From: Morinoia aosen
Taxonomy: Eukaryota; Arthropoda; Malacostraca; Amphipoda; Talitridae
Assembly: GCA_030386875.1 (NCBI GenBank)
Contig: CM059559.1
Span: forward strand, 6,011,177-6,075,176
Length of the DNA: 64,000 bases
Reading direction: 5' to 3'
The notes under the pieces were generated by a model that was not told the origin of the DNA, made no database searches, and worked only from the letters and a program-made list of their open reading frames with translations. Shown here one piece after another: positions 28,436-62,880 of this stretch. Each line of letters begins with the position of its first letter. Position 1 is the stretch's first letter. The position numbers and the translations under genes were made by a program.

Positions 28436-28722
28436 TCAGGTATCAATTCAATTGGACTAAGGCTTTGACCCAATTGAACCGATGTATTCAATTGGGGGCT
28501 TCGATTCAATTGGATTAAGGTGTCACTGGGAGTAGACTAAGATATCAACGCAATTGGACTAAGGTATCAATTCAATTGGACTAAGGTATCACTTCAATTT
28601 TACTAAGGCTTCGATCTAATTAGACTAAGATATCAATTCAATTGGACTAAGGTATCACTTCAATTGGCGGCTTCGGTTCAATTGAACTGAGGTATTAATT
28701 ACCTCAATTGGACTAAGGTTTT
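28436..28722. repeat. Degenerate ~27-bp array before MDR exon 1
   Basis: Variants of TCAATTGGACTAAGGTATCA repeat about ten times and stop about 13 bp before the splice acceptor of the exon at 28736. Divergence between units is high. Confidence 0.85.
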
Positions 28723-28735
28723 TTCAAACTTGCAG

Positions 28736-28889
28736 AGGCTCGGAAGGCGGCAGCGGGGGCGGCGAGCACGAGATGGCGCGCCTCATGAAGCAAGTGAGCA
28801 TCGAGAGTCCCTCTCACAAGCTCAAGGAGTGCATCTTCAACTTCGACGAGCCCATGCCGGAGGTGCCCGAGCTCGGCGCCAGGGTCAAG
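28736..28889 (+). CDS. MDR gene, first recognised exon
   Basis: Acceptor TTTTTTCAAACTTGCAG, donor GTGGGT. It encodes a Gly/Ser-rich start (GSEGGSGGGEHEMARL), then the first strands of the GroES fold (CIFNFDEPMPEVPELGARVK). It begins with one base of a split codon and ends in phase 0. An internal ATG at 28773 could start a shorter form if this were a first exon, but the upstream frame is open to the acceptor. Confidence 0.8.
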
Positions 28890-31800
28890 GTGGGTTCACT
28901 CTACCATCTGTTGATCATCAATAAGTCTGTGTCCCGTTGTTGATCATCTATAAATTTGTGCCCCTGTTAAAAATAATAGTATTTAATGAACCCATTTAAT
29001 ATTTGGTCTTTATAAGCCCCTAACAACTTTTGACTTTAATTAAATTTGAGTTGAACATTGAACTTCAGTTTCACCCGTCGCATTCAACGTGTTGAACAGA
29101 ATGTTTCAGTTGATGTGTTTCAGTTTAGCGATTTGGCTGATGCCCTGATGCCTTTACAACCTTCGTACTTTAGGGAATTGAGGCGACTTCGTGCTCTGTA
29201 GCATGTACGTTTGCATAAAGTGCTGTTAGGTACAGATAATGCCTTTAGTTTTTCGGTGAATTTTTATTGGATTGCTTGGATTCTATGGGAGTTGATCAAA
29301 TTTTCATGAAAGCTCCCCGTTCGAAAAAATGTACGCCTGTCTGTAGATACATCCCGTATTATTAAATAAAAACAAACCTGTTCAAGTATACTTGCTTCCG
29401 CAGCTGTATTTCTATGGTTGTATGCGTATGCTGCCATCTGAGTACGCTTTGGTCTTTTGATAGTACACCGTACTTTCTGTAAGTGTAGGCTTGTGACCTC
29501 CCATTGAAGATATGGATATAAGTAAAAGTTTTGCTTTTTAGCATAGCCTAACCGCGAATAAAATCGCTTTAATATAAATCATGTTTCTTTAAAAACATTT
29601 CAATAATAAACAAATCAAAACATTTTATTAATTTTATTATTTTATTAATAATTTTAATGGTTTAATAATTTTATTCTTGAAATGTTTTCGAAGAAATATG
29701 ATTCCCATTAAAGCTATTTTCTTTGCTCTTTATTCTCCCATCGAAGGGTTTATTATCCCTAGCTACCTTCCTGACGGAGAGTATGTGACCCTTAGCTACT
29801 CATCTCAGAATCAGCAGAGTAGACGTTGGGGGTTGTACAATAGGTTTTTTTTAGCTGTGTTTACGGGTGACAAGCCTGTTTTTTTGCTTTTCCTGTTTTT
29901 CTCTTCCTCTTTTCATTTCCTCTTCCTGTTTTCACTTCCTCGTCCTGCTTTCTTTTCCTCTTTCTGTTTTCTTTTTTTTTCCTGCTTTCGTTTCCTCTTT
30001 CTGTTTTCTTTTCTCTTCCTGTTTTTTCCTCTTCCTGTTGTCTTTCCTCTTCCTGTTTTTTTCCTATTCCTGTTTTCATTTCCTCGTCCTGTTTTCTTTC
30101 CTCTCTCTGTTTTCATTTCCCCTGCTATGTTTTTAAAGACTCTTTAATTTTAACATCAGAGTTCTATGGAAGAAGTCTATTAATCTCTCATTTCGTAGTG
30201 TATGTCACATAAGTGAACCACGTATTAAAATTCGCAGTGATATCCACTTCTCAAACACTGGTCTGAAGATTATTCTGGTCAAAGCAGATATATTTGGGAG
30301 AGACAGCGCACAAGATCTGTTTCATTTCTGTGTGGTCCAATAGCCAATCAAAGCTAAGGCCTACTGGTATCTATGCTACGATTTGGAGATAGAGAGATGT
30401 TCTCGGGCCGATTGTGAGGGGTTAGTAGTGTTATTGTGTGGATGTATGTACAATAAGTTGTGGCGTTGTATCCATATCTTCAGTGTCGAGTAATGGCTCA
30501 ATGCTTATATTTTTTATTCATCGCTCCAAGTGGTGTGCTTCACAAATGACTGATTTTAAGATATTTTTGGGCTATTCAAAAGAGTGAGCTCGTGTGCGTG
30601 TGAAAACACGTGCAAAGTGCGAGTCAAAAGCACTGACCATTCTCAAAGAAACGTGTATTTTACACATGTCTTATTGATGGAGAAAATTGTAAGATTTATC
30701 ATTTAATATTTTTAAATAAAAAGTTTAGAGTTACGTTTCCTCCAGGGTCTATTTTGCTGAACATTATGAACATTCTTATTATAAAAAACTAGTCCACCCT
30801 CTTTATTTGAAATAAAAAAGAGGGCAAAATGAGAGAAAGGCCGTAAGAAGTATAAAAATACAATCTCTCGAGAGTTGATGAGGCCGCGTGAACACGGCCC
30901 GTCAAAATATATAGGACTGGAGCTTGTATCACAGATACGCTCATCACACACTGCAGGCTGGCTTCGGACAGACCGACGGACGGACGGACGGACGCGGCTC
31001 TTATTATAGTATAGATTGTGGTGATAGCCACTATGGCATTTTCCACCATGAACATTGCCGAAATTTGCCTGTGCTTTATGTTATTATGATTATTATAATT
31101 ATGTGCGACGTTTCACCACCGAAATTTGCTCCTGCTATACCTATATTATTACTGTAATTATGATTATTACTATTAATAGTCCACCCCCCCCCCTTTATTT
31201 GAAATAATAAAGAAAGCGAAATGAAAAATGGCCGTAAGAAATAAAAAAAATCAAGTGCACGCGGCCCGCCAAAAATGCATAGTAATGTTCGACAAATCAC
31301 ATGACGTACGTTCCTATTTCCTGAGAATTCTTTTGATATTCATTCACACTCGAATTTGATGGATTAATACACCGGAAATTGTGGAGTTGATGAAGCTTGT
31401 ATCACAGATACGCTCATCACACACTGCAGGCTGGCTTCGGACAGACAGACAGACAGACAGACAACCCTTTTAGTATATGTAGTATAGGTTACTATAATTA
31501 TCACTATATAGGAAGTTTCATTACATGTGTCTGTGCGGGCAGGTGCGGAACGCGGGCGTGTGCTACAGGCTGCGGTCGGCGTCGTCGAGCGCGAGCATCA
31601 AGAGCCTGGACGTGCTGGCCATGGGCTCCCCTCTCCACCACTCCGTCAGGGACACCTCCTTGTTCCCGGGATACGAGGTCAGCCGCCTTTTTTAACACAT
31701 ATTAAACGTGAATGCATGCTTTCTCGAGTAGACGAATATGGCTGCGTTTTTTAAGTTAGAGATAAATTTCATGAGTGATGACTGACAAAATTTTCCCGAA

Positions 31801-34800
31801 TCGTGACAGCGTTTCGAATTTGGTAAAATGACTGCGTTTTTTTTAGTTGGAGGTAGAATTTATGAGTGATAACTGACGAAATATTCAGGAATTGCAAATC
31901 GTTACAGCATTATTAAGTGAGAAAAAATGACTGTATTTTCTAAGTTAGAGCTAAATTTCATTTGTGATAACCGACGAAATAGTCGCGGATCGCAAGTCCA
32001 AGTGCACCGGAGGACGCATCTGTGCTGCGAACCACATATAAGATGACGACCTCATCTTATATGTGGTAGCACAGATGCGCACTTTTAGAATATAACAATA
32101 TTCTCGGAGTGTGATGATCAGAAGGGGCTCTTATCACAGCATAGATTACCAAGGCGCCCTTCATACTACTTCCTTTTGTGTGACCCTTGCGTTATTTTTA
32201 TTTGAGACATAATTTATTCATAAAAAACGATTAATTTTTGCCCCATAATTCTGTGCAAAACATCATAAAGTTGAGTTAAACTTCCTCAGCTTCTAATAGC
32301 GCTTTAGTCTGACCTCAGCTGCAGTAACAAACATCTCTTAAATTCAAGTCAAGTAAATGGTAAGTAGATGACTAACGACCCCCAATGTTAACGTGGAGCC
32401 TGACTGGCATTAATGAGTGTACTCAATTTTCGTGTTGGGGCTCAAACGGAGCCAACGTTGGTCTAATGAACTTTACGTCTACTAGGAGCGTTGTACTCAG
32501 TCTAACTTTTTAGCCACCTGCATGCATGTTTTTCGCCGCCCAAGTAATGAATACGCTTAGGCGGCGAAAAACATGCATGCTCTGGCGCAAAAGTTATACT
32601 GGGTGTTTACTCTCACGTGCGTGAAACTGAATTTTGTTCTCTTTAGAAACAATTTTATTGCCTTATGAACTGCTCTTTTTTCTCCTAATCACATTTCTGA
32701 CTCGTTTATTGATATTGAAAATTAGTGACCTCTCAGGGGAATACAGTTGCATCTATGGGAATTAGCGTTCCCAGAGGGAATATGTGAGGTCCCAAGCTGC
32801 AGAGGTTCTTGAAATTTTATTATGAAATATAATGAAAATATAATATAAAAATATTTTATAATGTCGCCGCCACTCGGACGAAGGCTTTACACGTGAAAAT
32901 GAAGGGAGCGCGTCACTGAATTTTATTTTGTTCTTCAATTAATTCGACGGAAATCTTACCTTACTTATTTATCCTCAATTATCTTAGTCTTCGTATGTGT
33001 ATTAATGAATCTTTTCTGCGCATCAGCGTATTTTCGTTGCGTGTGCATTGATCTTTTCACGTGAAAATCAGTGTATGAATTATTCGTATCATGGCTGGGA
33101 TTAGTTGTCATCGCGCAATTATCGATTATGCTAGTCATTTCTATATGTCTTTTGGTAGCGAAAAATCGCACGTGATAACCCAATATTCTTCACATCATCA
33201 TGGTGAACTCACTACTGAGCGTATTTTCATCACTGCGGCTCATGTACCACTTTCATATAAGGATATAAAATGTTAACGATGCTGGTTGTGAAATGACTCC
33301 CGCTGGAGTAATATACTACGCATGTTATCGGCAGTAGAGAGCAATAAAGAAAAAAAAATTGCACCGCTAAGTATGCCTCTTTCTAGCTCAAATCACTCGC
33401 CTGCTCTAGCACACTCGCTCAACAATGTAGAAAGTATCATAAGCAATGCTACTCTAACTCAGAATGTCCTCTCACACGCATCGGTTCGTTGTTCAAATAC
33501 ACGTGTGCAATTATTGTAACTTTCCGGTGTTCAAATGCTCGTGTGCAGTTATTATAACTCTTCGTTGTTCAAATACACGTATGAAGTTATTATAACATTC
33601 AACTCTTCAAATGACTTATCGTTTACCGTAACTTTCTTGATAATATTGTGCAGGTGGCGGGCACAATCGACTCGATCGGCAGCGGTGTGAGCGACACAGA
33701 CCTGGCGGTGGGGGACCGCGTTATTGTGTACCCTTATGAGGGCCACCCTCCTGGGTACGTGCTGGGGTACTTGGTTGTTTGGTACCTCCTGGGGTACTTG
33801 GGTGTTGGGTACCTCTTTGGTACGTACTGTGGTACTTGGGTGTTGGGTACCTCCTGGGTACATGCAGGGGTACTTGGGTGTTTGGTACCTCCTGGGTTAC
33901 TTGGGTGTTGGTACCTCTTTGGTACGTCCTGGGGTACTCGGGTGTTGGGTACCTCTTTAGTACTCCCTGTGGTACTTAGTTGTTGGGTACGTCCTGGGGA
34001 TCTAGTATGTTACCATGGGCTTGTATTCATTACAAATGTTGACGTGAACGTATTTTCGTAACAAATGTTGCCACAACTTATATTTATTACAAATTTTGCA
34101 TGATTTCCGGCAGCTACGGCGAGTACATCGCAGTACCCGAAGTGAAGTACCTCGTCAAGATCCCCGACAACATGAGCCTCAGCGTGGCCGCCATGCTGCC
34201 CTCAGGCGCCCTCTGGGCCATGAACACCGTCTTCAGGGCACGGGAGCAGGTCACCGAGGTCATCAAGAACAAGGGCGAGAGAGGTAATTGTCTCAAACTA
34301 TCACCCGTCAAAAATGACGGGATTTAATATTATCTTGAATAAATCTTCCATATGCGGATGACAAGTAACTATATCCATCCGACATAGTACTACCCGCGAT
34401 TAAAATATTGTGCCAGGGTAGAGGAAAGAAGGTTGAGTCATTTCTACGTGGGAAAAAGCACCTCCTCTTGTTCGGCTAGCCAATAGAACGGCTTCATTTC
34501 AAACAAACTGTATGATGTCATTATTGCGACATGAGAATGTCCAGGCCCGGCGAATAAGTAAAAGTGTTCAGGCCCGGAGAATAGGTAAAAGTATTGCGGT
34601 ACGGAGATGCAGGTATGATGAAGTTGCGCTCGACAGGCACACACAGCGTATTGAGATAGTACATTCATGCAAAAGTAATGATTCATCCAAAATATATAAG
34701 TATCCAAGCACGGAGATGTAGGACAAGTAATAATGGAGTTGCCCTGCGCAGGCACGTGCAGCGTGCTGCTGGTGGGCACGGGCGGGCTGGCGCTGTGGGC

Positions 34801-37800
34801 TCTCCGCATCGTCCGCTACTTCTGGCCCGCCAAGGAGGACCACATTAAGATTACCGTCGCCTGCCTCCGGGACGAGGGCATCTCCATCCTCAGGGATGAG
34901 CTGGGGTCAGTGTTGCTCAGGGTGTCCCATGAAGTGTACTCCCTCTTTGACTGCCCAGTACTATCTATTTCTGTGACGAAGAAATCTCTATCCTCATTAC
35001 TATCTTCGTGATGAGGAAATATCTATCCACATTACTATTTCCGTGATGAGGGAATATCTATCCTCATAACTATTTCTGTGACGAAGGAATCTCTATCCTC
35101 AGGGGTGAGCTGGGGTGAGTATTGTAAGGGGTGTCCCATGAAGTTTACTTCTTTTTGACTGCCCCGTACTTCATTATCTCTTTAACTGCTCAGGAATCAT
35201 GTATTTGGTTTCGATGTAGGTGTTGATAGACATAGATATAAGTCTAATGAGTTAAATTGACAGAAAAGACCATTAAATTCAAAAGTATTTAATATTGTTT
35301 AAAAAAATCAGTTTCGCCTAGCAAAATATTGATGAGTTATCGTCAGTCCAAGTGGGGGCTCGAGCTGAGAGTTAGGTTGGGCTTCTTTTTGTTGAAATAA
35401 AATGTCTTTTGTTTTGTTAAGGGCCAATTTTTTTCGGTTCACTGTTATCCTGTTTTTCAGCACCTATTAACTTTCTTCTTCAACTCTTATCTTATTTCAT
35501 GAACTCCTTTCTCAACTTACTATTTATATGCCCCTTCTGCGTAGATTCCGCGTTCCCTTATCTCCATATTATTTGGTGCCTTCCTCCTTCCTCTCTTTCA
35601 GACGCTTTCTTTAGCAGTTAATGTAATCTATTGTCAGTCTAAACTTTGATGAGTACAGTTTTTTAGAATCCCTTGTATTTTTTTCTCCCGTATTGCTCAC
35701 CATGGAGTAGAATATAAAAGAATGGCGAACTAAGGGGTCTATTCTCGGGGTGCTATACAGAGTGGTACACACGGTACAGAGTGGTTCACACGGTACAGAG
35801 TGGTACACACGGTACAGAGTGGTACACACGGTACAGAGTGGTACACACGGCACAGAGTGGTACACACGGTACAGAGTGGTACACACGGTACAGAGTGGTA
35901 CACACGGTACAGAGTGGTACACACGGTACAGAGTGGCACACACGGTACAGAGTGGTACACACGGTACAGAATGGCACAATTCACACCACCACACACACAG
36001 AGTAGCCCCACACAGCATCCATAAATTGCGATGACCACCACGCAGGGTGGACATCGTGCAGTGGAGCGAGGACCTGTACGAGGAGCAGCTGGTGGACAGG
36101 ACGCGCGACGCGTGCGGCGGCACCGTCGACATCGTCATCGACTTCAGCGCCACCTCGCGCTCCGTCAGGCGCGCCATGAAGTGTCTCCAGCCCGTGAGTG
36201 TTGCGCCGCGCTGTGTGTGGGGGGGACTATTGGGACTGTACGGTGGGATTACTTGGGACTGCACGGTGGGACTATTTGGGACTGTACGGTGGGACTATTT
36301 GGGACTGTACGGTGGGACTATTTGGGACTGTACGGTGGGACTATTTGGAACTGTACGGTGGGACTATTTGGAACTGTACGGTGGGAATATTTGGAACTGT
36401 ACGGTGGGACTATTTAGGACTGTACGGTGGGACTATTTGGGACTGTACGGTGTGACTACTTGGGACTGTACGGTGGGACTATTTGGGACTGTACGGTGGG
36501 ACTATTTGGAACTGTACGGTGGGACTATTTGGGACTGTACGGTGGGACTATTTACAATTGTACGGTGGGACTATTTGGAACTGTACGGTGGGACTATTTG
36601 GGACTGTACGGTGGGACTATTTGGGACTATACGGTGGGACTGTTTGGGACTGTACGGTGGGACTACTAGTGACAGTACAATGTGACTTGTGGCAGTACGA
36701 CTGTGTAGAGCGAGTTCTCAAACATACAGTATACCTGACAAAAATATGTAGGTCACTTCTGTTTCAACGTTGGGACTACTGTCGGAAAACTCGTATTTCT
36801 ACTCGTGTAGTTTGAGAGAATGAGTGTGACGCTCATCATCATATCGTTGTGGGTGATTTTGCTATAGCTAAGGTTTTTTCCGAATTTTTAAGTCGGTGAC
36901 GCGTCTGCAGTTAGCTAGCTCATTGAACAGATGTCAATTCGCTTTTGTAAAATATTCATTTCTTTCTGAGTCTCGAGGCTGGGCATTGTGGGTTAAGTGA
37001 AGCCGAGAAACATTCATCGGATTTAGTCATAACGGTTTAATGGCTAAAGCACAACGTTGACTTTTATTTAGCACAATATATTTAGCTCCAATATCACAAC
37101 CAATTACCACATTTTGCTTCATGATCACAGTCAAATGCTCCTTTTAGCTTCACGATCACACTCGAATACCACATTCAGGTAATATCACATCAAAGAACCG
37201 AATAACCCATTTAGGGTCTACCATCACCACCAAATACGGTGGTGATGGTGGTAGTCCCAAGTAGTCTCAAACACACAGCACCTCCAGAACCATAAGACTG
37301 ATACAAATGGTGACTGTGGCACAGGGCGGAGTGGTGCTGGTGAGCGCAGAGCACGCTGAGAGCTTCCTGGCTCGCTACTCCAAGGAGGCAGAGAAGAGCG
37401 CACACAAACTCGTCGCTGTCCAGCTCGGGTCTCTGGACCAGCTCAAGGAGCTCGTGCACCTGGTCTCCACCAATGAGGTGCGTGTGTTACTAATGTCTAT
37501 TGGCCTTCTTCTTCTGTGGCACCTGGTCTCCACCAATGAGGTGCGTGTGTCACTCATGTCTATTGGCCTTCTTCTTCTGTGGCACTTGGTCTCCACCAAT
37601 GAGGTGCGTGTGTTACTCATGTCTATTGGCCTTCTTCTGTGCCAACTGGTCACCAATGAGGTGCATGTGTTACTCATGTCTATTGGCCTTCTTCTTCTGT
37701 GGCAAATGGTCTCCACTAATGAGGTGCGTGTGTTAATCATGTCTATTGGCTTTCTTCTTCTGTGCCAACTGGTCTCCACCAATGAGGTGCGTGTGTTACT

Positions 37801-44012: not shown

Positions 44013-44106
44013 TCAGGATCTTAGCAACGAGAACTGGAAGTAATGTAAAGCCAAGTCGGCAACAGAGCTTTCGCAGCGGGCTGTCCTGCTACGACGAGAT
44101 AAATAA

Positions 44107-44378: not shown

Positions 44379-44456
44379 CTACAGATGCAGGCGGTGCAGC
44401 CGCTCCACCGCCGTCCGCTTGGTGACCGCCTCGCCCCAGTGGGTCAGGGAGCCGTC
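44379..44456 (-). CDS. C2 gene, terminal exon
   Basis: Acceptor TAATACAACAG. It encodes DGSLTHWGEAVTKRTAVERL then HRLHL and TAG at 44381-44379, the C-terminal helix and strand of a C2B domain. A repeat of TTACATGAATTA units starts directly upstream of the acceptor. Confidence 0.82.
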   Translation of the reverse strand, partial: DGSLTHWGEAVTKRTAVERLHRLHL

Positions 44457-53400: not shown

Positions 53401-54035
53401 AGCTGCATTTTAGGTGTCTTCAAATGATGAAATAAGGAAGTAAGTAATGGATTGAGAAATGAAGAACACCAGTGTTGTTTTGAGAACTTTTCCTATGAGC
53501 AATTAGTTGTTCTACCGGTTTCAGCGAATCGATCACTGTAAAGTGGTTAGTAAACGATTTTCAAAAACTTAAATTATCCGAAAAGGGAACAAAATTCATT
53601 GCATTGTGAAAAAAGACCTTTCAAATATATTAATTTAAAGCGGATATACAATCAATTGAAAAGTCGGGAAATTTTTGTGGGACACCCGGTATTTACAGGG
53701 TGTTGTGTGATGCGATGCGGATTTTAACCATAGGCAGAAAAACGCAAAATAAAACGATTTTCAGGAGTGACAAAACCTCACAACTTCTTTGTTTTCGAGA
53801 AATGATGATCTGAAATAATTATAGATTCCTGTAAGAATAGCCTGAAGCGCGTGCCAAAGAAGTTTCGTTTTTACTCGTTGGCTGCATGTCAAGCCCATTC
53901 TTACGGGAATCTGAAATTATTTCAGGTCATTTCTCGAAAACAAAGCAGTTTCGAGGTTTTGTCACTCATGAAAATCGTTTTATTTTGCGTTTTTCTGCAT
54001 TTGGTTAAAATCTGTGCATCGAATTACATAACACC

Positions 54036-54075
<40 letters not shown>

Positions 54076-57000
54076 CATTTAAAATAATGCCACATTGATT
54101 ATTAAAATGGTTTTGTTCAATTTTTCTAGTTTTCGGAAGAGTTTACTTCGATCGGCATTTATTGAATTTAAAATCTCCCCTAACGTTTTGTGATTAAAAT
54201 TTTGCGACGCGTTTCGTCCTGTGTCCACGGACATCATCAGGCTAAAAATAGTTTGAGTGGTGCAGCTAATAAAATTGAGAACGGAGAATGTACCTTCCAC
54301 TACGGAACCTAGGTCGCCTAGCCCTCCTCACTTCGCACACCAACTGTACACCTTCTAACTTGCATCAAATGCACATTTCTACATTCGGGTAACCGCAGCC
54401 ACTCTGCCCACTTCTCCATTCTATTAGCTGCACAACTCAAACTATTTTTAGCCTGATGATGTCCGTGGACACAGGACGAAACGCGTCGCAAAATTTTAAT
54501 CACAAAACGTTAGGGGAGCTTTTAAATTCAATAAATTTCGATCAAAGTAAACTCTTCCGAAAACTAGAAAATTTGAACAAAACTATTATTAATAATCAAT
54601 ATGGCATTATTTTTAATGAAACCTGTATCAAGGAAGGGTTACTACCAAAATATACTGAATATATATATATATATTCTTGATAATCTATACATCAAGAAAC
54701 AAACAAATAAAATATATCATATTTTTTTTCCTAATATAAAGTTATATCAACTCAAATGTAAAGAGAGCCATTTCAACGCTCATGTACATTATATATGCAT
54801 GGTATTCTCGATAGATCTCTCACATTTTTGTTCATTATGGAAATGATTTGCCTGGAGGGAACATTTTGAAGATTAGATTAAATTATAAGTTAGTTTAGGC
54901 CTCCTCATCCGCTACGAAAATAGAACGTATCAAAGAGAGGACGGAGGAAGGCACCATTTAGTATGGAGATGAGAAAATGAGGAATCTATGCTGAAGGGTC
55001 ATAGAAACAGTAAGATGGGAAAGAAGTTCATGAAACAAGATCAAAGTTGAAGAAGAAAGTAGTAGGTGCTGAAAAAACAGGACAGCAGTGAACCGAAAAA
55101 ATATGGTCCGTAACAAAGCAAAAACCTATGTTATTTTAACAAAAAGGCCTACCTAACCTTTAGCTCGGGCCCTCACATTGTCCCCCAGGGAGCGCTACTT
55201 CCCATAGATACAATAGTTGTATCCCCCTGAGGGAGGGGAACATTTTGAATATCATTAAAGAACATAACGGATGAAATTAGAGTTACAACGTAAATTTTCA
55301 ATACCCTACATCAGCTGGGTGACCAATGAACCAGCAAAAAAAAATTTGCAAAAGAATTGCATCATTCATAAATTACATACGTAGGCACTTAAAGTTGACT
55401 GAATGTGCTTGTTTATTGGCTGAATGCTGAACAGCATTTCAAATAACAAGTTCAAAGACTGAAAATTATTTCATTAGAGCACCAAATGGAAAGCAAAGGC
55501 AAAGAATAGCACAAAAGAATTTCCTTGCGTTGCTAATGCGGTTTTAGAGAAATAATTAGAGCACAATTAGCTAGCGCAACTAGCTACCAAAAAAGTATTT
55601 GCAATAAACCATAACCACAAATGATAGATGGGGTGCACTGTTGCGCAGGACTCAATGCACAGAATTACAAATCTTGAAAAACAAATTAAACAAGAGAATA
55701 GTTGAAGACGACATAGCATGGACAGTAAGAAAATGAATAAAAAATGTCTATCATGAAAAGGCAAAACGATAATTACAATATAAAATGACCCAAATTCACA
55801 TCTCTCGGACCCTGTAGGAGTGCTAAGTCCCAAAAGTGCAAGAGTCATACAACGTTGTGCTATTTTTTGGCCATGAGACATATTTAGAGCAATCGATTTT
55901 TCATTATAAACTCACAGTTTTGGTTTATCACCAGCGTTTTCCTCTATTCTTGTTGGCACTGATACAAAGCACTGTGAAAAGCACATTGGTTTAATTTATT
56001 GTTCAATGTCAGCATTTGCACTTATTAATATCGTGAAAATAAGTAACTTATTGTGACATCAATACACATTTGAAAAAAAAAACAGTCTTTATAGCCACTC
56101 TGTGAAAAACTTGCAAATGAATCAAGTGAATGTGAACTGTTCTGTAAACCTGCTCAGTAAACTATCCAGAGTACTTTGATATGAATACCACTGTTCTAGT
56201 TTCAAAACAGTTGGACGAACAACACTTCACATAACTATGTTTGAAAAATTGAACTCAGCTTGAGCTCGAGAAGTGACGAGAAAAATCTGAGGATTAGCAC
56301 AACGGATGATCGCCACAACATCCAAGTAAACCATCAATATAATATCAATAAACATGTTATGGGCATCTGATGCACTACTACGTCACAATTTGCCTAACGC
56401 AATGATTGTGAAGAACACAGTCGAAACACCAAACGCAACCTTTGCAGAGGCAGTAACCGCCAGTATGCTCACGATGACACGCTGTCATTAACTGACAGAT
56501 CGAGTCATGCCGCTTTCAAATGTTACGGCCGTTAATCAACTGAAAATTTTGCGCCTTCGAACCATCCAAGGCCAACTATGAATTTCACGTCCGAGCTTGA
56601 CCGCGCTTGGTTTGGGGCGCGTAGAGGCGGTGTTAAAGCAGAGCAGGCCGACTAGCCTATAAATCGTGCATAATCGACCCTCACGTCCTTAATACACCGG
56701 CGATACGTCCTTGATTTTCAATTGGGTTGCGTGTAAACAGATGAAGAGCAAGTTGCAAGTTTCTTCATAATAGCAGAAGTTTTCAGCAAATTTGTTCATA
56801 ATAGCTGAAATTTTCAGACGGACTTTTCCTTTTGCAGCTAAATGAAAAATGGAAAAGCTCCAGGTTTGGATGGCTGCACGGTTGAATGTCTAAAGAAAGG
56901 AGGAAATGTGGTTATAGAATGGTTGGTGCGTTTGTTAAATGTGTGTTTCGAGGCTAGTAAAGTGCCGGTTGATTGGAGTAGCGCGTGCGTAGTTCCGTTG

Positions 57001-60000
57001 TACAAGGGGAAAGGTGACAGGTATGAGTGCAGTAATTTTAGGGGTATAAGTCTACTGAGTGTTGTTGGGAAGCTGTATGGAAGAGTGTTAATTGGAAGAG
57101 TGAGAGTGTTGACAGATCGTGTGCTTGCTGAAGAACAGTGTGGTTTTAGGTGTGGTAGAGGTTGTGTGGATCAAATGTTTGCTGTGAGGCAGGTGAATGA
57201 AAAATACTTATTAAAGGGAAAGGATGTATATTGGGCATTTATGGATCTAGAGAAGGCGTATGACAGAGTGGATCGCGAGGCTCTATGGCAAGTGGTAAGT
57301 TTGTATGGAGTGGGTGGGAGACTGTTGAATGCGATCAAGAGTTTCTACATTGATAGCAGAGCTTGTGTGAGAGTAGGGAATGAGGTGAGTGAATGGTTCC
57401 CAGTTGTGACAGGTGTGAGACAGGGATGTGTGATGTCGCCGTGGTTGTTTAATTTGTTTATGGATGGTGTGGTGAGAGAAGTGAATGCCAGAGTGTTGGG
57501 AAAAGGGGCGCAGTTGGTGGGACGAAATGGTATGTATTGGGAAGTGTGTCAGCTGTTGTTTGCAGATGATACAGCGCTTGTGGCTGATTCAGAGGAAAAA
57601 CTGAGGAGACTGGTTGCAGAGTTTGGTAGAGTGTGCGAAAGGCGGAAATTGAGGGTAAATGTGAATAAAAGTAAGGTGATGAGATGTTCAAGAGGTGGAG
57701 TGTTTGGAACTTTGGATGTGAGGTTAAATGGGGAAGTTTTAGAGGAGGTAGAGCATTTTAGGTACCTCGGGTCGGATGTGACTGTTAAGGATAGTATGGA
57801 AGTAGAAGTGAAGCATCGAGTGAGTGAAGGTTGTAAGACATTGGGTGCAATGAGGAAAGTTTTTGAATGCAGGAGTTTGAGTATGAATGCTAAGAGGGGA
57901 CTGTATGAAAGTTTGATTGTGCCAGTTTTGTTGTATGGAGCAGAGTCCTGGGGGTTGAGAGCAGCTGAGAGGAGGAAGTTGGATGTGTTTGAGATGAAGT
58001 GTTTGAGGAGCATGTATGGAGTAACTAGAAGAGATAGGATCAGGAATGAGTTGGTTAGGGGGCAGACGGGTGTTATCAAAAAGTTGAGCAGGCGAGTGGA
58101 TGAAAGAGTGCTTGGATGGTTTGGGCATGTTGAAAGAATGAATGCTGAGCGGCTGGTGAAAAAGATATATATGTCGGAAGTGAGTGGTCTTCGAGCGCGA
58201 GGTAGACCACGGATGAGTTGGATGGATGGGGTGCGACGTGCTTTGTATGAGAGGGGTCTGACTGTGGACGTGGCGAGAGGGATGGCTGCGGACAGAAGTG
58301 AGTGGGGGCAGTGTATAAGGAGGTAATTTTATTTTTGACGCGTTACTGGAAGCTGCCCGCGTGTGATGGGGTTGACCTGTCATGTGCGGGGGGAGGGGCT
58401 GCACTCAATGAAGCGGTCGGGGTAAACCAGCTGTGGCTGTCGGGCCTGACTGTGAAAGGTGGTTGTGCTGGGCTGCTGCTGATCCTGGCAGTTCAGGTGC
58501 GGCCAGTGCTGCCTCTCTCGCCTCCTAGTGACTAAGTGTGGTGATTGTGGCCTGCTGTCGGCTACCCTCCCATAGGGAGGATAAGCCCGGTATATGTATG
58601 TATGTATATGTAGCTAAAGTGGACGTCTTTGTTCTCTATCTGAAATTGTTCTTACTCACAGCATTTCTGAATTCTATTTTCAAAATTTAGGTGCTGCTAA
58701 ATAACATAAACTTTAGTTGTGACTGAACACAAAAATGCCCTGATAGCGCGTAACGAAACTCGATAGCTGTTAGTGAAAGTAGTCATGAACTTCGATCTGT
58801 ACATTTGAGGGCTTGTAAGATTTTACCCTGGGCAAAATATCCTTAAAAAAACATTTATCCAGTCGATTAGCATAATTTTAGTAGCCAAGGTAACAAAGAA
58901 ACTCGATCTAGAAAAAACTTTAATATTCGATTAAGGCATAACTTAATGCCAGTCATTTTAAATAAACTCTAAAAAACAATAAAATGATAATTCGAATGCC
59001 AAGTAGAACGTTATCTCAGATTGGGAAGATTGGGTAGAGAAGATATGATCTTGACGAGTCGAAAGGAGTTCAGCGTAAAAATAATTATATGCACACGTAT
59101 TAGAATAGGCTAATTATGTACCTGACCCACTAATTTTTGCGAACAAATTTCAAACAGTATTGTTTTGGACTCCAATCGTTAAAAGTAAATAACAATAGGA
59201 GCTGCAAAATTAGACGTCCACGTCGACATTCTACCTTAAAAACATTTAAAATGCCTCATAGATGTTGCCCCAAATCAAATAACTCGCCACAAGTTCCAAT
59301 GACCCCTCAGGCTAGAAGAAATAAATAAAAAACCTGAAGAATCCATTTTGGTTTTATGGTCTGTACTTGATTTCACCATCGAGTGAAACTCCACAGTGTG
59401 TTGAGGAACAACAAAAGAACTACGAGTAAAATTCAAGGAGTTAACTGTCAATCACCGAGTTAACTCTCATGGTTGACATACGGTACCTCGATGTCAACGT
59501 ATTTCAAGGACGGGACTTTGGCATCGTCATCTTGCTTGTCCGAGATGAGAGAAGCTTCGTACCTTGGCAGCTTGGTCACTTTGAGGATGTCCACTTCCAG
59601 CCTGAATAATAACGGAGCTTATTATCACGTGAGGTATACGTGCGTGGGTCACAGAATCGAGAAGAAAATGACAGCAGAAATGAGCCAAGCGGCCCATTCT
59701 CGGTGGTTGTGATCAATCCCCGTGTCGTCTAACATCAATCACGCTCAGGCACCAACGAACCGCATTTACAATCACGCACAGGCACCAACGAAACGTATTT
59801 ACAATCACACGCAGGCACCAACGAAACGTATTTACAATCACACGCAGGCACCAACGAAACGTATTTACAATCACACGCAGGCACCAACGAACCGCATTTC
59901 CAATCACACACAGGCACCAACAAAACATATTTACGATCACGCACAGGCACCAACGAAACGCATTTACAATCACGCACAGGCACCAACAAAACACATTTAC

Positions 60001-62643
60001 AATCACGCACACGCATGTGCACCAACGAAACGTATTTACAATCACGCGCATGCACCAGTACATTAACACACTATCTCATGACGTAGCGGTTACGCAAAGG
60101 GTGGTCTCATAATTTTACGATTTTCATCTCTTCATGTGAAATATTACGGCGATATTTCATCTTATTTTCATCCATATTGAAATTTATTGCTCTTTAGTTG
60201 GACATGACTGACTAGTTTAACTTTTTCGAAATGGTATCTGTAATTTTAGCCGCCCTTTACAGAAACTATACGGCGAAAATCTTAGATGCCCCGATGAAAA
60301 AGTTCGACAGTGATAACCGTGGCTGATCACCCAAAATCACCTATTTTTTTTCCGTGCTATGCTGACGTTATTACACGTACAACGCGACTTAAATCTCAAA
60401 CGTAAGGCACAACCTACATCAGGTTGTGCCCCATCAAGTGGAGAAAATGCTTTCTAAATCAACGATACTGGAGTTGTATTACTATTTACTCACTTCTTTT
60501 CCTTGGAGAACTTGTAGGCGATGTAGACGAAACCAAACGTGTACTGAGCGATTGTATGGGACTGTAGATTTGCCTGAAAAATGGTGAGCAGCTAAAAGTG
60601 ATTCGATGAAGTTAAGAGTTAGTTTAAGCCTCTCTAACCACAAGTTTTACGTAATATTAAAAATGCTATTAGGTGCACACATTCTCCCTCAACTTTTTGA
60701 TCTTATTATCCCACTAGTTATAATACCAATCCTTGCTTCTCGAAAAAATGTATCGCTGATGCACCAAAATTTGAAATTAATTATGGCTTTCTTCAATCTT
60801 TTTAACTCATGGCCCAAATGCAATTGTTCGGACCAATACCACATATTCCTCTAACTTGATTGCGATTCATTCAGTTGAAAAGGTAGTACCTTCTTGGCCC
60901 CGATGCTCTGCACCGTCGCTTTGGACCTGAGGTTGACTTTGACTCTGGTCCCCCCCGCTGCGGCCGCCGTGTATTGGTAGTTCGCTTGTGACGATCCCTG
61001 GTCTCCCGCTACCAGTCCTAACAGTCTGCTCAGCGAGCCTTTCTCGGTCACTGCAATGACGAAAATTATTTATTCATGATAGACATTGTCTGGAAACTTA
61101 ACGTGAACTTAACGAGCCTTTCTCGGTCACTGCAATGACGGAAAATATTTCTTGATAATGGACATTGTCTGAAAACTTATCGTGATGCCGGAGGAAGGTA
61201 AAGAGCTATAGATGGCATAGAGAGTAGACGAAATAGACGAAACGTGTGGTGGAGCAGGATTTGGAAAATTTGAACCTACTCACAAAGTTTTGTGTAGATT
61301 TGTGTTTGTTATCATATTTCACATTATAGTGGCTCAAAACTTTTTTGTGGATTTTTCGGAAGTTATTTGGCAAGAGAGTTTGTCAAAATTCTTTAAAATG
61401 TGATATCTGATTTTTAGATACGTGAAATTGTTGGAGCTCGAATGACAGTCACAATTGTCACGAAAAAGCTCACCTTTTCGCCTATCAAGAGTACAGTCTC
61501 AAAAATAATGACAGTGTGTACACTAAATGAAAAAACGTCTTCCTTAAAACATATATATACATTGAAATTAATTTGCCTAAAAATTAGGGAGATTCTATCA
61601 TGCAGTTTCCATTGTTCAATGTATTTTCAAAAATAGTATTTCAATGGTTGATTGAGATTATTTAGATCTTGTTACAAACCTGGTGTATGCTGTTCGCTAG
61701 CTTCGTAAGGTTAATGGCTAGCTTATATGCCATTATTTAATGGGTAGAATATGGTACTATATAGTTGTTGAAGTACCAATAGGTAATTTAAAATTACCCA
61801 AAGTAAGTACTTTTTTTACACCGAGGAGTCAATTTTCGCAGACGGTTTTAAAAATTAGGCTGGCGGTGAAAAACATCGAAGTAAATGATGGAAAAATTTG
61901 AAAAAACATAGGTATTGAATTTCCTAAAATTTTCCAGTACTAATTTAGTCTCCAGAATAAATTCCTAATTTTATCGTTTAGACACGTTGACCACGTTCGA
62001 CCGGTTTAAAGGTTGCTAACCCAGTCAAACTTTTCGCCGCCTGCATTCATGTTTTTCGCCGCACAAGTAATTAAATCTCTTGGGTGGCGAAAAACATGCA
62101 TGCTCCGGCGAAAAAGTTAGACCGGGAAGTAAACTGAAAATTGCAACGATGAATTGATTTCTTCCTGTACCTGCACATGACTGTTTAACGACACTGTACT
62201 TAATTTTTGGTAATTTTTGAATATGAAGATAAATAGAAGAACCAAATTCAGGGGAAAGAATGTATTCTTCATATTGAATATGTTCTTATCATACGGTGAA
62301 CATTATTCTCATCTCTTTTTACCGAGAAGACTGCTAATTTCCTATGAGAAGAACTTATCGTTTAAAGTTCTGTATAACTTACTTGAACCTTAATTCATCT
62401 CAATAATTAGAACACACGCGCACTGATAAAGTTCTGACAAAAAATCTGTCATGTACCTCCTTCGACGCGCTGCATTTCGTCATTTGGTTCGATTTTCTTC
62501 TCGTTTTGGCTGCTGGACAGCCACTGGAGGATGCTGTTGGCAACCACCGGTCCCACAGCGGCCTGTGAGCTCTCGGTTGACGGTGGCCGGCTGTCAACCG
62601 CCACACAGGCCGCCTCTTGTGGCGATATGAACGGCGCCGGCTT
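44379..62643 (-). CDS. Double-C2-domain, synaptotagmin-like protein, ten exons, 5' incomplete
   Basis: Ten minus-strand exons (A to J) have GT-AG borders and phases that join to 464 codons plus TAG. Residues 1-125 are low-complexity Ser/Ala/Gln-rich linker. Residues about 126-270 fit a C2 domain (FGFVYIAYKFSKEK, LEVDILKVTKLP, VNLRLSKGKELTHKIKKF, CLLAVSVTRRQKG), and about 278-464 a second (GSVLLVLSCKHAVAGAVELC, IKIRTQLIGSEKSGS, ALTLSFVVQVYGRNN, EVLLGTVVLGPEL, LTHWGEAVTKRTAVERLHRL). The final W-x-E...LHRL block resembles the synaptotagmin C2B end. The usual Asp clusters of Ca2+-binding loops are not evident, so calcium-independent binding is inferred. A membrane anchor, if any, would be in missing upstream exon(s). 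Exact orthology is not established. Confidence 0.72.
44460..44645. repeat. Degenerate ~20-30-bp repeat before the C2 terminal exon
   Basis: Variants of GTTACATGAATTATGAGTAC repeat about seven times, immediately upstream (minus-strand sense) of the terminal-exon acceptor. Confidence 0.75.
45105..45440. repeat. ~60-bp degenerate repeat containing the donor of C2 exon H
   Basis: Units share GCGTCTCACTTCCAC (the reverse complement of exon end GTGGAA plus donor GTGAGACGC), GAAGTGAGTGAGCA, GTGAAAAT and ATCAGGTATAAAAAGCG. The unit at the exon edge (45430-45445) is the real junction; others at about 45118, 45177, 45236 and 45296 are variants. Confidence 0.75.
45437..45547 (-). CDS. C2 gene, exon H
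   Basis: Acceptor TCTGCGGCAG, donor GTGAGA; 37 codons, phase 0 to 0. It encodes VYGRNNCGPAVKKEVLLGTV and VLGPELKCSPEF, the seventh strand of C2B with the LLGxVxLG motif of synaptotagmin-type C2B domains. Both its acceptor (towards 45720 and 45890) and its donor (towards 45110) have degenerate copies. Confidence 0.8.
45548..46000. repeat. ~160-bp degenerate duplications containing the acceptor of C2 exon H
   Basis: GTACACCTGCCGCAGACATG with CGTCAGTTTTATCACGGTCA (45542-45585, the real acceptor region) recurs as GTACACATGCCGCAAACATG at about 45723 and CACACACCTGCCGGAGACGA at about 45889, each with TAGCTA and TAGTTTAG segments and a GGTGTTCCAAAGAGAGGACG block, the last belonging to family A. Confidence 0.75.
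46000..46385 (-). repeat. Dispersed repeat family A, copy 10 (inverted)
   Basis: Plus-strand order is TTAGATTAGATAAGTTAGTT, GGTGTTCCAAAGAGAGGACG, a ~65-bp unrelated interruption, GTTCATGAAACAAAATTAAT, AGCAGTGAACCGAAAAAAGA, CCTTTAGCTCGGGACCC and TTCCATAGATACAATAGATA then CTCCCTGAGGGA. Confidence 0.75.
46430..46787. repeat. 51-bp minisatellite carrying seven copies of the exon G donor
   Basis: Read on the minus strand each unit holds TTGTGCAG, then GTTGTGATCGTTGTCGTTAC. First intron bases fall at 46787 (real), 46736, 46685, 46634, 46583, 46532 and 46481, exactly 51 bp apart. One copy has CAT in place of CAG. The exon G frame stays open through all units to a stop at about 46413, giving a 17-residue repeat (VVIVVVTLLISSLHVVQ). 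Confidence 0.95.
46788..47023 (-). CDS. C2 gene, exon G (middle of C2B)
   Basis: Acceptor TTACTGTGTGCAG, donor GTTGTG; phase 1 to 0. It encodes VKPEIKIRTQLIGSEKSG, an insert rich in Gly/Arg with NFGGWGTLFSEG, and ALDSELRALTLSFVVQ. The insert is long for a C2 domain. The exon end CAG and its donor recur every 51 bp downstream. Confidence 0.8.
47281..47428 (-). CDS. C2 gene, exon G1 (start of C2B)
   Basis: Acceptor ACTGCCCGCAG, donor GTGAGC. It encodes KGSVLLVLSCKHAVAGAVEL and LEVRLVQYLDVAALG, the first two strands of C2B, ending in phase 1. Confidence 0.8.
47429..48366. repeat. C2 intron with hairpin repeats and a degenerate ~55-bp array
   Basis: At 47436-47520 the sequence GTAGTTCTTATAGAACTACT and related inverted units make short hairpins beside the exon acceptor. 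At 47640-47890 units with CTATAGTACTAACTA, AGGTAGATCTCATGCTATAG and GCGGTAGACCTCACG repeat four to five times. Confidence 0.75.
48367..48534 (-). CDS. C2 gene, exon F
   Basis: Acceptor CACGCGCTGCTCAG, donor GTGATC; 56 codons, phase 0 to 0. It encodes HKNLEDCLLAVSVTRRQKG and SVGHALLKLTRKDVQTPG, the last strands of C2A. A large minisatellite begins about 45 bp upstream of its acceptor. Confidence 0.8.
48580..50155. repeat. Large compound minisatellite before C2 exon F (38-bp and 66-bp periods)
   Basis: Two zones are visible. 48595-49100 has a 38-bp unit (GATGAATGGGAGAATTAGAA, CTGGCGATTTCCATAGGA). 49100-49900 alternates a 37-bp unit (GAGAATGGGAGAAATAGAAC, AAGCGATTTCGTTGGGA) with a 29-bp form lacking AATAGAAC, giving a 66-bp dimer. 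49980-50150 returns to the 38-bp type. Shared GCGATTT shows common origin. Confidence 0.93.
50156..50999. other. Intronic stretch without recognised exon
   Basis: A 63-codon plus-strand frame (50156-50347) has coding-like composition (KKFSTEIGFETPKLLRKDYV) but no supported exon structure. A partial family A end (TTAGATTAGATAAGTTAGTT) is at 50664-50690. Confidence 0.3.
51000..51118. repeat. Degenerate array carrying copies of the exon E donor
   Basis: On the minus strand TGTTGCTTTAG then GGTGAGTGAGGG marks the exon E junction at 51099/51098. Related GTTGC.TTAGGGTGAGG units repeat down to about 51005, the farthest one (near 51009-51028) again being GTTGCTTTAGGGTGAGTGAG. Confidence 0.85.
51099..51209 (-). 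CDS. C2 gene, exon E
   Basis: Acceptor TGCCACATCAG, donor GTGAGT; 37 codons, phase 0 to 0. It encodes VNLRLSKGKELTHKIKKFRT and DDLPFEPECCFR, the middle strands of C2A, which exactly fills the gap between exons D and F after an 8.3-kb intron. The donor and the preceding TGTTGCTTTAG are repeated in the adjacent array. Confidence 0.7.
51296..51505. repeat. 23-bp minisatellite (about 9 units)
   Basis: The unit is ACACTAATAGTCCTAGTCCT then TGG, with AACAG and AGCCC variants. Confidence 0.92.
51506..51884. other. Intronic stretch with a pol III B-box-like sequence
   Basis: CCAGATTCGAATCGCGG at 51835-51851 resembles a tRNA B box but no A box is found at the right distance. A 25-base match in inverted orientation to 56698-56722 (CCCAATTGAAAATCAAGGAC core) suggests a shared repeat. 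No exon. Confidence 0.35.
51885..52052. mobile_element. ~168-bp palindromic MITE
   Basis: The left arm GCTCCCGGTTGCACGTGCCT and GTGTACAATATTG is an inverted match to the right arm CAATATTGTACATCC and AGGCACGTGCAACTGGGAGC. The middle has its own inverted pair ACATTCAC / GTGAATGT. Target duplication is not clear. Confidence 0.75.
52525..52800 (-). repeat. Dispersed repeat family A, copy 11 (inverted)
   Basis: Plus-strand order: AGGGAACGCGGAATCTGTGC, AAACAGTAAGTTGAGAAAAA, GTTGAAGAAGAAAGTAGTAG, ACAGGACAGCAGTGAACCGA, GGCCTACCTAACTCATAGCT, GGGAGCGCTAGCTCCCATAG and ATACAATAGTTGTATCCCTC. Confidence 0.8.
52811..53689. mobile_element. Palindromic (inverted-duplicated) mariner 5' end
   Basis: TA flanks both ends. 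The left half and the right half read inward are the same sequence for about 400 bp: GTGTCCCACAAAAAT, CCGCTTTAAATTAA, TTTTTGAAAATCGTTTA, AACCACTTTACAGTG, ACACTGGTGTTCTTCATTTC and GAAGACACCTAAAATGCAG. Each half then starts the same transposase: plus strand from 53163 (about 55 residues including YEATKNCEKVRRAINKKFPE, with one frameshift), minus strand from 53408 (MQLTHDQKIFLVLEYEATVN, about 25 residues). The halves meet near 53335. So the element is two 5' ends of one mariner joined head to head, with the catalytic part missing. Confidence 0.88.
53695..54038. mobile_element. ~340-bp palindromic MITE
   Basis: The left arm (GGGTGTTGTGTGATGCGATG, GATTTTAACCATAGGCAGAA, AAACGCAAAATAAAACGATT) matches the right arm read inward (CGGTGTTATGTAATTCGATG, GATTTTAACCAAATGCAGAA, AAACGCAAAATAAAACGATT). 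The arms are about 150 bp and the centre about 45 bp. It follows the mariner palindrome within 6 bp. Confidence 0.85.
54039..54073. repeat. (TA)n microsatellite
   Basis: About 16 TA units lie between the MITE and the Penelope-like pair. Confidence 0.95.
54195..54255 (-). ncRNA. Hammerhead-ribozyme-like core, minus-sense copy
   Basis: The inverted arm has the same core on the minus strand: CTGATGA (54240-54234), stem II GTCC/GGAC, GAAA (54215-54212) and CGCGTC. Sequence in the core is identical to the plus-sense copy. Confidence 0.58.
54435..54500 (+). ncRNA. Hammerhead-ribozyme-like core, plus-sense copy
   Basis: CTGATGA at 54453-54459 and GAAA at 54478-54481 are the two invariant core segments. 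Between them GTCC/GGAC can form stem II. After GAAA, C-GC-G then TC gives a two-base-pair stem III followed by the cleavage dinucleotide (UC, 54486-54487). Stem I can form between TTTTTAGC before the core and GCAAAA after it, with one mismatch. Minimal type I hammerheads with tiny stem III are known from Penelope-like elements. Confidence 0.6.
54885..55248 (-). repeat. Dispersed repeat family A, copy 12 (inverted)
   Basis: Near-complete copy. Plus-strand order: AGAGAGGACGGAGGAAGGCA, CCATTTAGTATGGAGATGAG, GTTCATGAAACAAGATCAAA, GACAGCAGTGAACCGAAAAA, AGGCCTACCTAACCTTTAGC, CCCCCAGGGAGCGCTACTTC and ATACAATAGTTGTATCCCCC then TGAGGG. Confidence 0.82.
55249..56841. other. Intronic stretch before the LINE insertion
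   Basis: A degenerate inverted family A copy lies at about 55600-55860 (GGACAGTAAGAAAATGAATA, CTCTCGGACCCTGTAGGAGT, CCCAAAAGTGCAAGAGTCAT). The rest is AT-rich with no recognised exon or repeat. Confidence 0.4.
56842..58326 (+). CDS. Non-LTR reverse transcriptase, N-terminally truncated
   Basis: The frame encodes the RT core in order: KNGKAPGLDGCTVECLK, then PLYKGKGDRYECSNFRGISL, motif A AFMDLEKAYDRVDRE, motif B GVRQGCVMSPWLFNLFMDGV, and motif C LLFADDTALVADSEEK with the catalytic aspartates. Post-RT segments HFRYLGSDVT, PVLLYGAESWGLRAAERRKL and LGWFGHVERMNAERL are typical of RTE-like and related LINEs of arthropods. It lacks the endonuclease domain and the front of the RT. The ATG used here is formed at the target-site junction, so it is not the native start. 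Catalytic residues look intact but the element could not retrotranspose by itself. Confidence 0.92.
   Translation: MKNGKAPGLDGCTVECLKKGGNVVIEWLVRLLNVCFEASKVPVDWSSACVVPLYKGKGDRYECSNFRGISLLSVVGKLYGRVLIGRVRVLTDRVLAEEQCGFRCGRGCVDQMFAVRQVNEKYLLKGKDVYWAFMDLEKAYDRVDREALWQVVSLYGVGGRLLNAIKSFYIDSRACVRVGNEVSEWFPVVTGVRQGCVMSPWLFNLFMDGVVREVNARVLGKGAQLVGRNGMYWEVCQLLFADDTALVADSEEKLRRLVAEFGRVCERRKLRVNVNKSKVMRCSRGGVFGTLDVRLNGEVLEEVEHFRYLGSDVTVKDSMEVEVKHRVSEGCKTLGAMRKVFECRSLSMNAKRGLYESLIVPVLLYGAESWGLRAAERRKLDVFEMKCLRSMYGVTRRDRIRNELVRGQTGVIKKLSRRVDERVLGWFGHVERMNAERLVKKIYMSEVSGLRARGRPRMSWMDGVRRALYERGLTVDVARGMAADRSEWGQCIRR
56843..58611 (+). mobile_element. Young 5'-truncated RTE-like LINE with 7-bp target duplication
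   Basis: AGCTAAA occurs immediately before (56836-56842) and after (58612-58618) the insert. The element begins inside the reverse-transcriptase domain, keeps an intact frame to TAA, has a ~255-bp GC-rich 3' UTR, and ends in a TATG/TGTATG short tandem run (58591-58610), the kind of simple-repeat 3' end typical of RTE-type LINEs. It sits antisense in intron D of the C2 gene. Intact frame and identical target duplications argue for recent insertion. Confidence 0.88.
58619..59486. other. Intronic stretch downstream of C2 exon D
   Basis: AT-rich with short frames only. No exon or repeat recognised. Confidence 0.4.
59487..59601 (-). CDS. C2 gene, exon D
   Basis: Acceptor TTATTATTCAG, donor GTACCG (a GTATGT six bases downstream is a possible alternative but would break phase with the next exon). 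It encodes LEVDILKVTKLPRYEAS and an acidic SDKQDDDAK loop in the place of the first calcium loop. Confidence 0.72.
59738..60062. repeat. 33-bp minisatellite (about 10 units) in C2 intron C
   Basis: The unit is CACGCAGGCACCAACGAAAC then GTATTTACAATCA. Variants include ACCGCATTTCC and an inserted CACGCATG unit near 60010. The unit is a multiple of three, so frames are open on both strands. Confidence 0.92.
60183..60326. mobile_element. ~144-bp imperfect-hairpin MITE, copy 1
   Basis: It shares CTCTTTAGTTGGACATGACT, GACTAGTTTAACTTTTTCGA, CTGTAATTTTAGCCGCCCTT and AAAATCTTAGATGCCCCGAT with a second copy at 63472-63614. The two halves are imperfect inverted copies of each other (ACTTTTTCG...GCATCTGTAATTTTAGC against ACTTTTT...GGCATCTAAGATTTTCGC). 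Confidence 0.8.
60494..60573 (-). CDS. C2 gene, exon C
   Basis: Acceptor CATTTTTCAG, donor GTGAGT. It encodes AQYTFGFVYIAYKFSKEK, the first beta strand of C2A. It ends in phase 2. Confidence 0.78.
60890..61050 (-). CDS. C2 gene, exon B
   Basis: Acceptor CGTCATTGCAG, donor GTACTA. It encodes EKGSLSRLLGLVAGDQGSSQ and GGTRVKVNLRSKATVQSI, linker ahead of the first C2 domain. The acceptor and about 20 exonic bases are duplicated upstream at about 61111-61140. Confidence 0.75.
61051..61190. repeat. Duplication of the exon B acceptor and exon start
   Basis: AACGAGCCTTTCTCGGTCAC then TGCAATGACG occurs at about 61111-61140 as a near-perfect copy of the exon B junction (61032-61061). The following GACATTGTCTGGAAACTTA is also duplicated. 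The period is about 80 bp. Confidence 0.88.
61191..62019. other. C2 intron A, AT-rich part
   Basis: No exon or repeat recognised. A short plus-strand frame at 61442-61636 has no recognisable features. Confidence 0.35.
62020..62126. mobile_element. 107-bp hairpin MITE, copy 3
   Basis: It starts CCCAGTCAAACTTTTCGCCG, has inner arms GTTTTTCGCCGCACAAG and CTTGGGTGGCGAAAAAC, and ends GGCGAAAAAGTTAGACCGGG. It is the third member of the family seen at 22197 and 32496. Confidence 0.88.
62457..62643 (-). CDS. C2 gene, exon A (first recognised)
   Basis: Acceptor ACTTACTCAACAG, donor GTACAT. It encodes 62 codons plus one base: a Pro/Ser/Glu-rich linker with VGPVVANSILQWLSSSQNEK. No transmembrane segment. 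A degenerate second copy of the acceptor and exon start lies upstream (about 62752-62775). Confidence 0.7.
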
Positions 62644-62880
62644 CTGTTGAGTAAGTTAGAGGCTGTGCAAATGCTGATTGTTTGTAATTTTTAGAGATTT
62701 CCAGCTGAAGGATACCAATTGTCAACAGTTTTTAACTTAGGGATCCCAGCGAAATGAATGGTGCTGGCTTCTGTTGAACTAGTTTTAGGTTGCGCTAGTG
62801 CTGATTGTTCGTAATTTTTTTGAGATTTCCAGCTGAAAAAAAGCAGTTGTTAACAGTTTTCAACTTAGGGAGACCAGTTA
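62640..62880. repeat. ~120-bp duplication including the exon A acceptor
   Basis: GCCGGCTTCTGTTGAGTAAG with GCTGATTGTTTGTAATTTTT and GAGATTTCCAGCTGAA (62636-62714) recurs as GCTGGCTTCTGTTGAACTAG with GCTGATTGTTCGTAATTTTT and GAGATTTCCAGCTGAA (62763-62840). Read on the minus strand, both contain an intact CAACAG acceptor followed by AAGCC. Confidence 0.85.

Follow-up and report, generated by a model that had tools for sequence, protein, structure and literature searches.

In the arthropod Morinoia aosen, exon-intron junctions of two neighbouring genes have been copied into the adjoining introns, as seen in a stretch of 64,000 nucleotides (hereafter, the window) at C4:6011177-6075176 of a 1.99 Gb assembly with 29 contigs. 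The copying was confirmed in the window and found to recur in other genes of the genome. We consider it likely, with a probability of about three in four, that the window arrays are junction-spanning minisatellites of the kind known from lancelets as "mirages", and that they are a by-product of general local tandem duplication. Targeting of the splice junctions was not demonstrated.

The two genes and their surroundings

The plus-strand gene, MDR, and the minus-strand gene (the second gene) were modelled with eight and ten exons, respectively (Table 1). The spliced MDR protein matches the Pfam families ADH_zinc_N_2 (5.5e-12) and ADH_N (6.3e-7), and its alignment to a solved dehydrogenase, 2h6e, has no gap where exon 5 joins exon 6 or where exon 7 joins exon 8. 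The first-pass annotation had called the second gene C2; this label is left unconfirmed, because the spliced protein matched no Pfam family at E<=1. Its exons G and H in that annotation correspond to H and I of the present ten-exon model. All modelled introns of both genes are GT-AG, and with codon usage learned from chaperonin genes the modelled frame was the best one in 18 of 18 exons (MDR 8/8, second gene 10/10).

Several other elements lie in the window. In the longest intron of the second gene, positions 56842-58326 (plus strand) hold an open frame that includes a reverse-transcriptase domain (Pfam RVT_1, 1.9e-36 for the piece scanned). A satellite with a 70-bp unit, about 104 copies and 94% matches occupies positions 482-7787. 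Furthermore, interspersed stretches that are alike by eye, with a core like gatacaactattgtatctatggga, occur in introns of the second gene near 55225 and near 52795 and, in a diverged copy, near 46370; they look like a short mobile element.

Table 1. Genes, junction-spanning arrays and near-junction arrays of the window
Feature	Position	Strand	Remarks
MDR gene (zinc-type alcohol dehydrogenase / VAT-1-like)	28736..38405	+	8 exons; open spliced frame, GT-AG, Pfam, alignment, codon usage
MDR exons 1-8	28736-28889, 31543-31677, 33654-33754, 34114-34283, 34752-34905, 36046-36193, 37325-37477, 38280-38405	+	
Second gene (formerly C2)	44379..62643	-	10 exons A-J; 464-codon open spliced frame, codon usage
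Second-gene exons A-E	A 62457-62643, B 60890-61050, C 60494-60573, D 59487-59601, E 51099-51209	-	
Second-gene exons F-J	F 48367-48534, G 47281-47428, H 46788-47023, I 45437-45547, J 44379-44456	-	
MDR exon 3 donor (33754) array	33747..33999	+	copies at 33792 (GT lost), 33857 (GT kept)
MDR exon 5 acceptor (34751) and one upstream copy	34608..34764 (approximate)	+	copy boundary 34636; weakest case, score 12.5
MDR exon 5 donor (34905) and copy	34871..35149	+	copy with 35 exonic bases lies 209 bp downstream (boundary at 35114); 35-bp array in between
MDR exon 7 donor array, 63-bp unit x6	37456..37830	+	boundaries 37477, 37540, 37603, 37660, 37723, 37786, GT in all
Exon A acceptor (62643), 127-bp unit x2	62622..62871	-	copy at 62770
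Exon B acceptor (61050), 79-bp unit x2	61034..61185	-	copy at 61129
Exon E donor (51098) array	50997..51114	-	copies at 51042 (GT lost), 51016 (GT kept)
Exon H donor (46787) array, 51-bp unit x7	46439..46796	-	weak donor gttgtg repeated
Exon I acceptor (45547) and upstream copies	45547..45882	-	45737 (AG lost), 45882 (AG kept)
Exon I donor (45436)	45152..45436	-	copy at 45246 (GT lost) in 56-bp array
22-bp array	28504..28667		ends ~68 bp before MDR exon 1 acceptor
23-bp x19 array	36223..36665		begins ~30 bp past MDR exon 6 donor
38/66-bp array	48570..50159		~36 bp from exon F acceptor (48534)
22-bp array	44467..44640		~11 bp from exon J acceptor (44456)

Copies of junctions in the window

For each of the 34 junctions of the 18 exons, we searched up to 600 bp away for an ungapped copy that reaches both sides of the junction. 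At the score thresholds of 12 and 20, which like that of 16 were not preset, a local junction-crossing copy including exonic bases was found at 10/34 and 9/34 junctions, respectively. The ten at score 12 (six donors and four acceptors) are exactly those that the first-pass annotation had named. The arrays it had reported next to MDR exons 1 and 6 and second-gene exons F and J are also present, at about the distances given in Table 1. In MDR, the best ungapped copy contains 8 exonic bases at the exon 3 donor, 13 at the exon 5 acceptor, 35 at the exon 5 donor and 22 at the exon 7 donor; in the second gene there are 22 at the acceptor of A, 17 at the acceptor of B, 11 at the donor of E, 9 at the donor of H, and 6 at both the acceptor and the donor of I. 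When junction windows were compared with the flanks of unrelated introns as a non-local control, score 12 was reached in 0/318 trials and score 10 in 2/318; chance matching is thus an unlikely source of the window copies.

The splice dinucleotide, GT or AG, is retained in 18/22 window copies. Such retention might reflect selection for repeated splice sites, whereby extra copies recruit U1 or other factors and aid exon recognition, and the copy of the exon 5 donor in fact scores 4.9 as compared with 1.3 for the modelled site, with smaller gaps at exons B, H and I. However, the site is lost in 4/22 copies, strong and weak donors have both been copied, and 24 of the 34 junctions have no copy at score 12; we therefore regard this selection as highly improbable. 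The arrays at exon 7 (37456-37830) and exon H (46439-46796) leave the reading frame of the exon open, for a total of 175 and 202 codons, respectively. Since their units of 63 and 51 bp are also divisible by three, splicing from a later donor copy would give a longer protein without a frameshift.

In the MDR exon 5 and exon 7 units, the exonic portions (35 and 22 bases) are conserved coding sequence and show no gap against 2h6e; against the next match, 1rjw, one residue is gapped in the exon 5 portion. The gapless alignment of these parts with 2h6e implies that the copying went from exon to intron, and thus the earlier claim that the duplications were born across the junctions gains support from old coding sequence within the units. 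In the opposite order of events, the exon end would have shifted into a pre-existing intronic array, and its exonic bases would be captured repeat. This order would agree with the small exonic overlap, just 6-11 bases, seen at half of the ten junctions. It is nevertheless very unlikely as a general account, given the exon 5 and exon 7 units and two copied exon ends of CCT delta, which likewise lie inside gaplessly aligned protein. At the five junctions with an overlap of at most 11 bases, capture of the exon end may have occurred.

Junction copies in other genes of the genome

Elsewhere in the same genome, we located eight chaperonin (CCT) genes and spliced them against solved chains. Among the 74 junctions in 37 introns that were well supported at both ends, copies were found at 8 (score 12), 6 (score 16) and 5 (score 20), and both donor and acceptor boundaries were affected. 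Ten of 47 chaperonin introns had been set aside for short support at one end; nine of their 20 sides were later counted, with 1/9 copied at score 12 and none at 16, and 11 were left out. The mitochondrial-type chaperonin had a copy at 0/18 junctions. For kinesin, 2/16 junctions were copied at score 16, in models that are less secure, as they were built from either a distant kinesin-1 reference or the joined exons of the gene itself. Of the 22 junction sides in 11 kinesin introns, six that seemed doubtful were set aside, one of them with a copy of score 27, and locus L053, a near copy of L052, was left out of the count. The best solved match to the kinesin-1 exons was 2y5w, a fly protein. In the same genome, 115 matches to PF00379, a cuticle domain characteristic of arthropods, were obtained, in line with an arthropod host. 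Altogether, 8/117 chaperonin and kinesin junctions outside the window were copied at score 16 (6.8%, interval 3.0-13.0%) and 11/117 at score 12. The window is richer than these genes (9/34 vs 8/117, Fisher P=0.0036).

One might ask whether wrong exon ends or assembly errors created this appearance. The junction positions of both window genes are predictions of the gene models, the second gene is without a Pfam match, and its donor at 46787 is weak. Against this, both spliced frames are open, codon usage backs every exon, MDR is backed by homology, and the same pattern occurs in chaperonin genes modelled on solved proteins. Such an artefact is thus extremely improbable.

The search outside the window also provided some separate observations. 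At a minus-strand kinesin exon end (L054), a donor with at least 40 exonic bases is copied 205 bp into the intron. Kinesin exons are paired at equal or near-equal scores within contigs (C16 45.76/47.11, C3 20.9/22.7, C2 33.79/37.78 and C20 35.93/36.03 Mb), and these pairs are segmental duplications or unmerged haplotypes. The near-identical loci L052 and L053 on C2, the sole pair compared as DNA, are 98.4% identical. Between them an intronic 32-bp array differs in copy number (20.6 vs 10.6), and an 18-bp array at the kinesin donor is equal, with 8.9 copies each in this one pair of loci. Seven near full-length chaperonin frames without introns were found at C27:56.8-71.8 Mb and C26:20.82 Mb (L004-L010). 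The one inspected (L007) is bacterial-looking, which suggests that bacterial sequence may be present in the assembly. No telomere repeat array was found in six 400-bp contig ends.

Frequency of copied junctions relative to random points

The null tests included 32 window junctions, that is, the 34 minus the outer acceptors of MDR exon 1, which has no copy, and of exon A, which has one, and 92 outside junctions, those of the chaperonin genes. The control points outside the window came from chaperonin introns, whereas the 117 outside junctions include those of kinesin. By plain coverage at score 16, 8/32 window junctions (25%) were copied as compared with 23.7% of 4770 intron points, and 6/92 chaperonin junctions (6.5%) as compared with 8.2% of 19458 points. 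There was no excess in either set, and the outcome at scores 12 and 20 was similar. The first-pass annotation had proposed a process that targets splice junctions for tandem duplication, and had offered for comparison the rate at random intragenic points. That proposal is unsupported: the rate at junctions does not rise above that of random intron points in the window (25% vs 24%) or in the independent genes. The plain counts of the window were also rejected as proof of targeting, since the window had been picked for its repeats.

Because expanded arrays inflate plain coverage, that comparison unfairly favours the null, and for this reason several nulls were used, with conflicting outcomes. 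With birth coverage, in which each array is counted once (at score 16 only, with the mitochondrial-type chaperonin included), an excess was observed both in the window (8/32 vs 5.8%, P=0.0004) and outside (6/92 vs 1.8%, P=0.007). When arrays were placed at random in their own introns, with 20-40 bp into the exons allowed, 8 spanning arrays stood against 1.4-2.4 expected in the window (P<=0.0015), and 6 against 1.5-2.6 in the chaperonin genes (P 0.004-0.044), an excess weaker than that of the window. These two stricter nulls may in turn favour junctions unfairly, because an exonic copy under selection stays recognisable longer; the 2- to 4-fold excess that they give in independent genes is confounded by this slower exonic decay. 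We therefore also compared edge points, for which detection leans on the intronic side and is less sensitive to exon conservation, with cut-offs of its own and a limit of 35 bp on the extension into the exon. The window again showed an excess (8/32 vs 5.3%, P=0.0002; vs 8.8% for points within 400 bp), and the chaperonin genes showed no significant excess (2/92 vs 1.2%, P=0.31). The picture was unchanged with exonic limits of 45 and 60 bp; at 80 bp the significant excess was gone in the window too (P=0.14). Some of the excess over the stricter nulls is expected, as exon-derived copies remain recognisable longer and the window was chosen for its repeats. A true, modest preference for junctions may exist but is not shown by these results.

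The distribution of copies along the introns bears on the same question. In the window and CCT genes pooled, a local copy was found for 13-18% of the intron points that lie 3-50 bp away from a junction. The share was 24% between 50 and 200 bp, 16% between 200 and 400 bp and 13-15% between 400 and 2000 bp, and it fell to 3% for points deeper than 2 kb. The junctions themselves were copied in 14/106 cases (13%; window and CCT), a rate from a separate count, as the tally by distance counts some junctions twice. The junction is the shoulder of an exon-flanking duplication zone rather than a peak. Transposon insertions, as at the RVT_1 frame, may dilute the deep introns. Arrays that do not span a junction and lie within 100 bp of one numbered 15 in the CCT genes, with 7.2 expected (P=0.002), and 9 in the window, with 6.3 expected (P=0.14). 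Within exons, local copies were found at 0.7% of 458 points, as expected if selection removes exonic duplications.

It could be argued that duplications arise preferentially at exon-intron boundaries, with R-loops, a nucleosome edge or the change in G+C content there as possible causes. Spanning arrays exceed random placement and birth coverage both inside the window and in independent genes, and the MDR exons have 60-68% G+C within surrounding 2-kb windows of 38-48%. However, nothing exceeds plain coverage, the junction forms no peak relative to the first 200 bp of the intron, and the independent genes are without a significant excess when detection leans intronic. We consider such a preference unlikely, and it is likewise unlikely that the boundaries are a true hot spot of birth, two to four times above the flanking intron, with junctions copied into introns by a boundary-linked DNA process.

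Local tandem duplication as a probable source of junction copies

The reading that we favour, that the arrays are by-products of general local tandem duplication, could proceed as follows. A segment of about 20-130 bp would be tandemly duplicated by slippage or template switching, probably anywhere in a gene. Duplications within exons would be purged by selection, few being seen there. A duplication straddling a boundary would leave the exon with its own splice site, and the extra piece of exon and the second site would fall within the intron; such a duplication could be tolerated, as neither the original exon nor its splice site would be lost. The intronic extra copy would normally be spliced away, and the array might afterwards expand or contract like any minisatellite, as is seen here for an intronic array only. 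By this mechanism, the rate at junctions would follow the local density of duplication, and a machinery directed to splice junctions would be unnecessary.

If the rate of about 7% observed for the 117 junctions outside the window holds genome-wide, junction copying would continually supply cryptic splice sites and partial copies of exons. Both the choice among near-identical splice sites and the origin of new exon ends or introns from junction copies would then become testable. Furthermore, mirages would be no peculiarity of lancelets and could turn up in any genome with intense local tandem duplication.

Comparison with known systems

In the AGGT model of intron gain, the duplicate supplies both ends of a new intron. 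Intron gain through tandem duplication of exonic sequence containing AGGT has been described, and the present arrays are similar in that splice signals are carried by tandem duplication (PMC4974935, PMC3087553). However, the copies found here adjoin their own junction inside an existing intron: the 22 window copies are 38-335 bp from it, and none is at the opposite splice site.

Human segmentally duplicated genes have internal tandem repeats at exon-intron boundaries that are able to alter splicing (PMC2812944). These are boundary minisatellites, as are the arrays described here. The human repeats differ from one recent paralogue to another and can give rise to new introns, for which there is transcript support (PMC2812944), whereas in the present case the copies lie within existing introns.

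The closest likeness is with the mirages of lancelets, and the view of the first-pass annotation that no duplication of this type had been described is contradicted by them. Mirages are described as boundary-spanning repeat arrays, with units that include exonic bases, at both 5' and 3' boundaries; the units are 10-72 bp in Adh3 and about 150-160 bp in globins, AG/GT is retained in many copies but not all, and the repeat number differs while splicing is normal (PMC3087553, PMC3902484). The present arrays are alike in several respects. Exonic bases together with the adjoining splice site are duplicated at 10/34 window junctions, both boundary types are affected (six donors and four acceptors, and both also among the chaperonin genes), the unit lengths overlap, and AG/GT is present in most copies, 18/22. 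The sole junction array that we compared between near-identical loci, at a kinesin donor outside the window, has an equal copy number in both. Among the matches listed in our literature search, which was thin on subscription papers, there was no report of mirages outside lancelets, and this is weak evidence of absence. The present case differs in that the rate was measured across unrelated genes, that it is known from DNA sequence alone, and that the host is an arthropod, a member of another phylum. Thus, as far as the literature search shows, these are mirage-type arrays in a new phylum.
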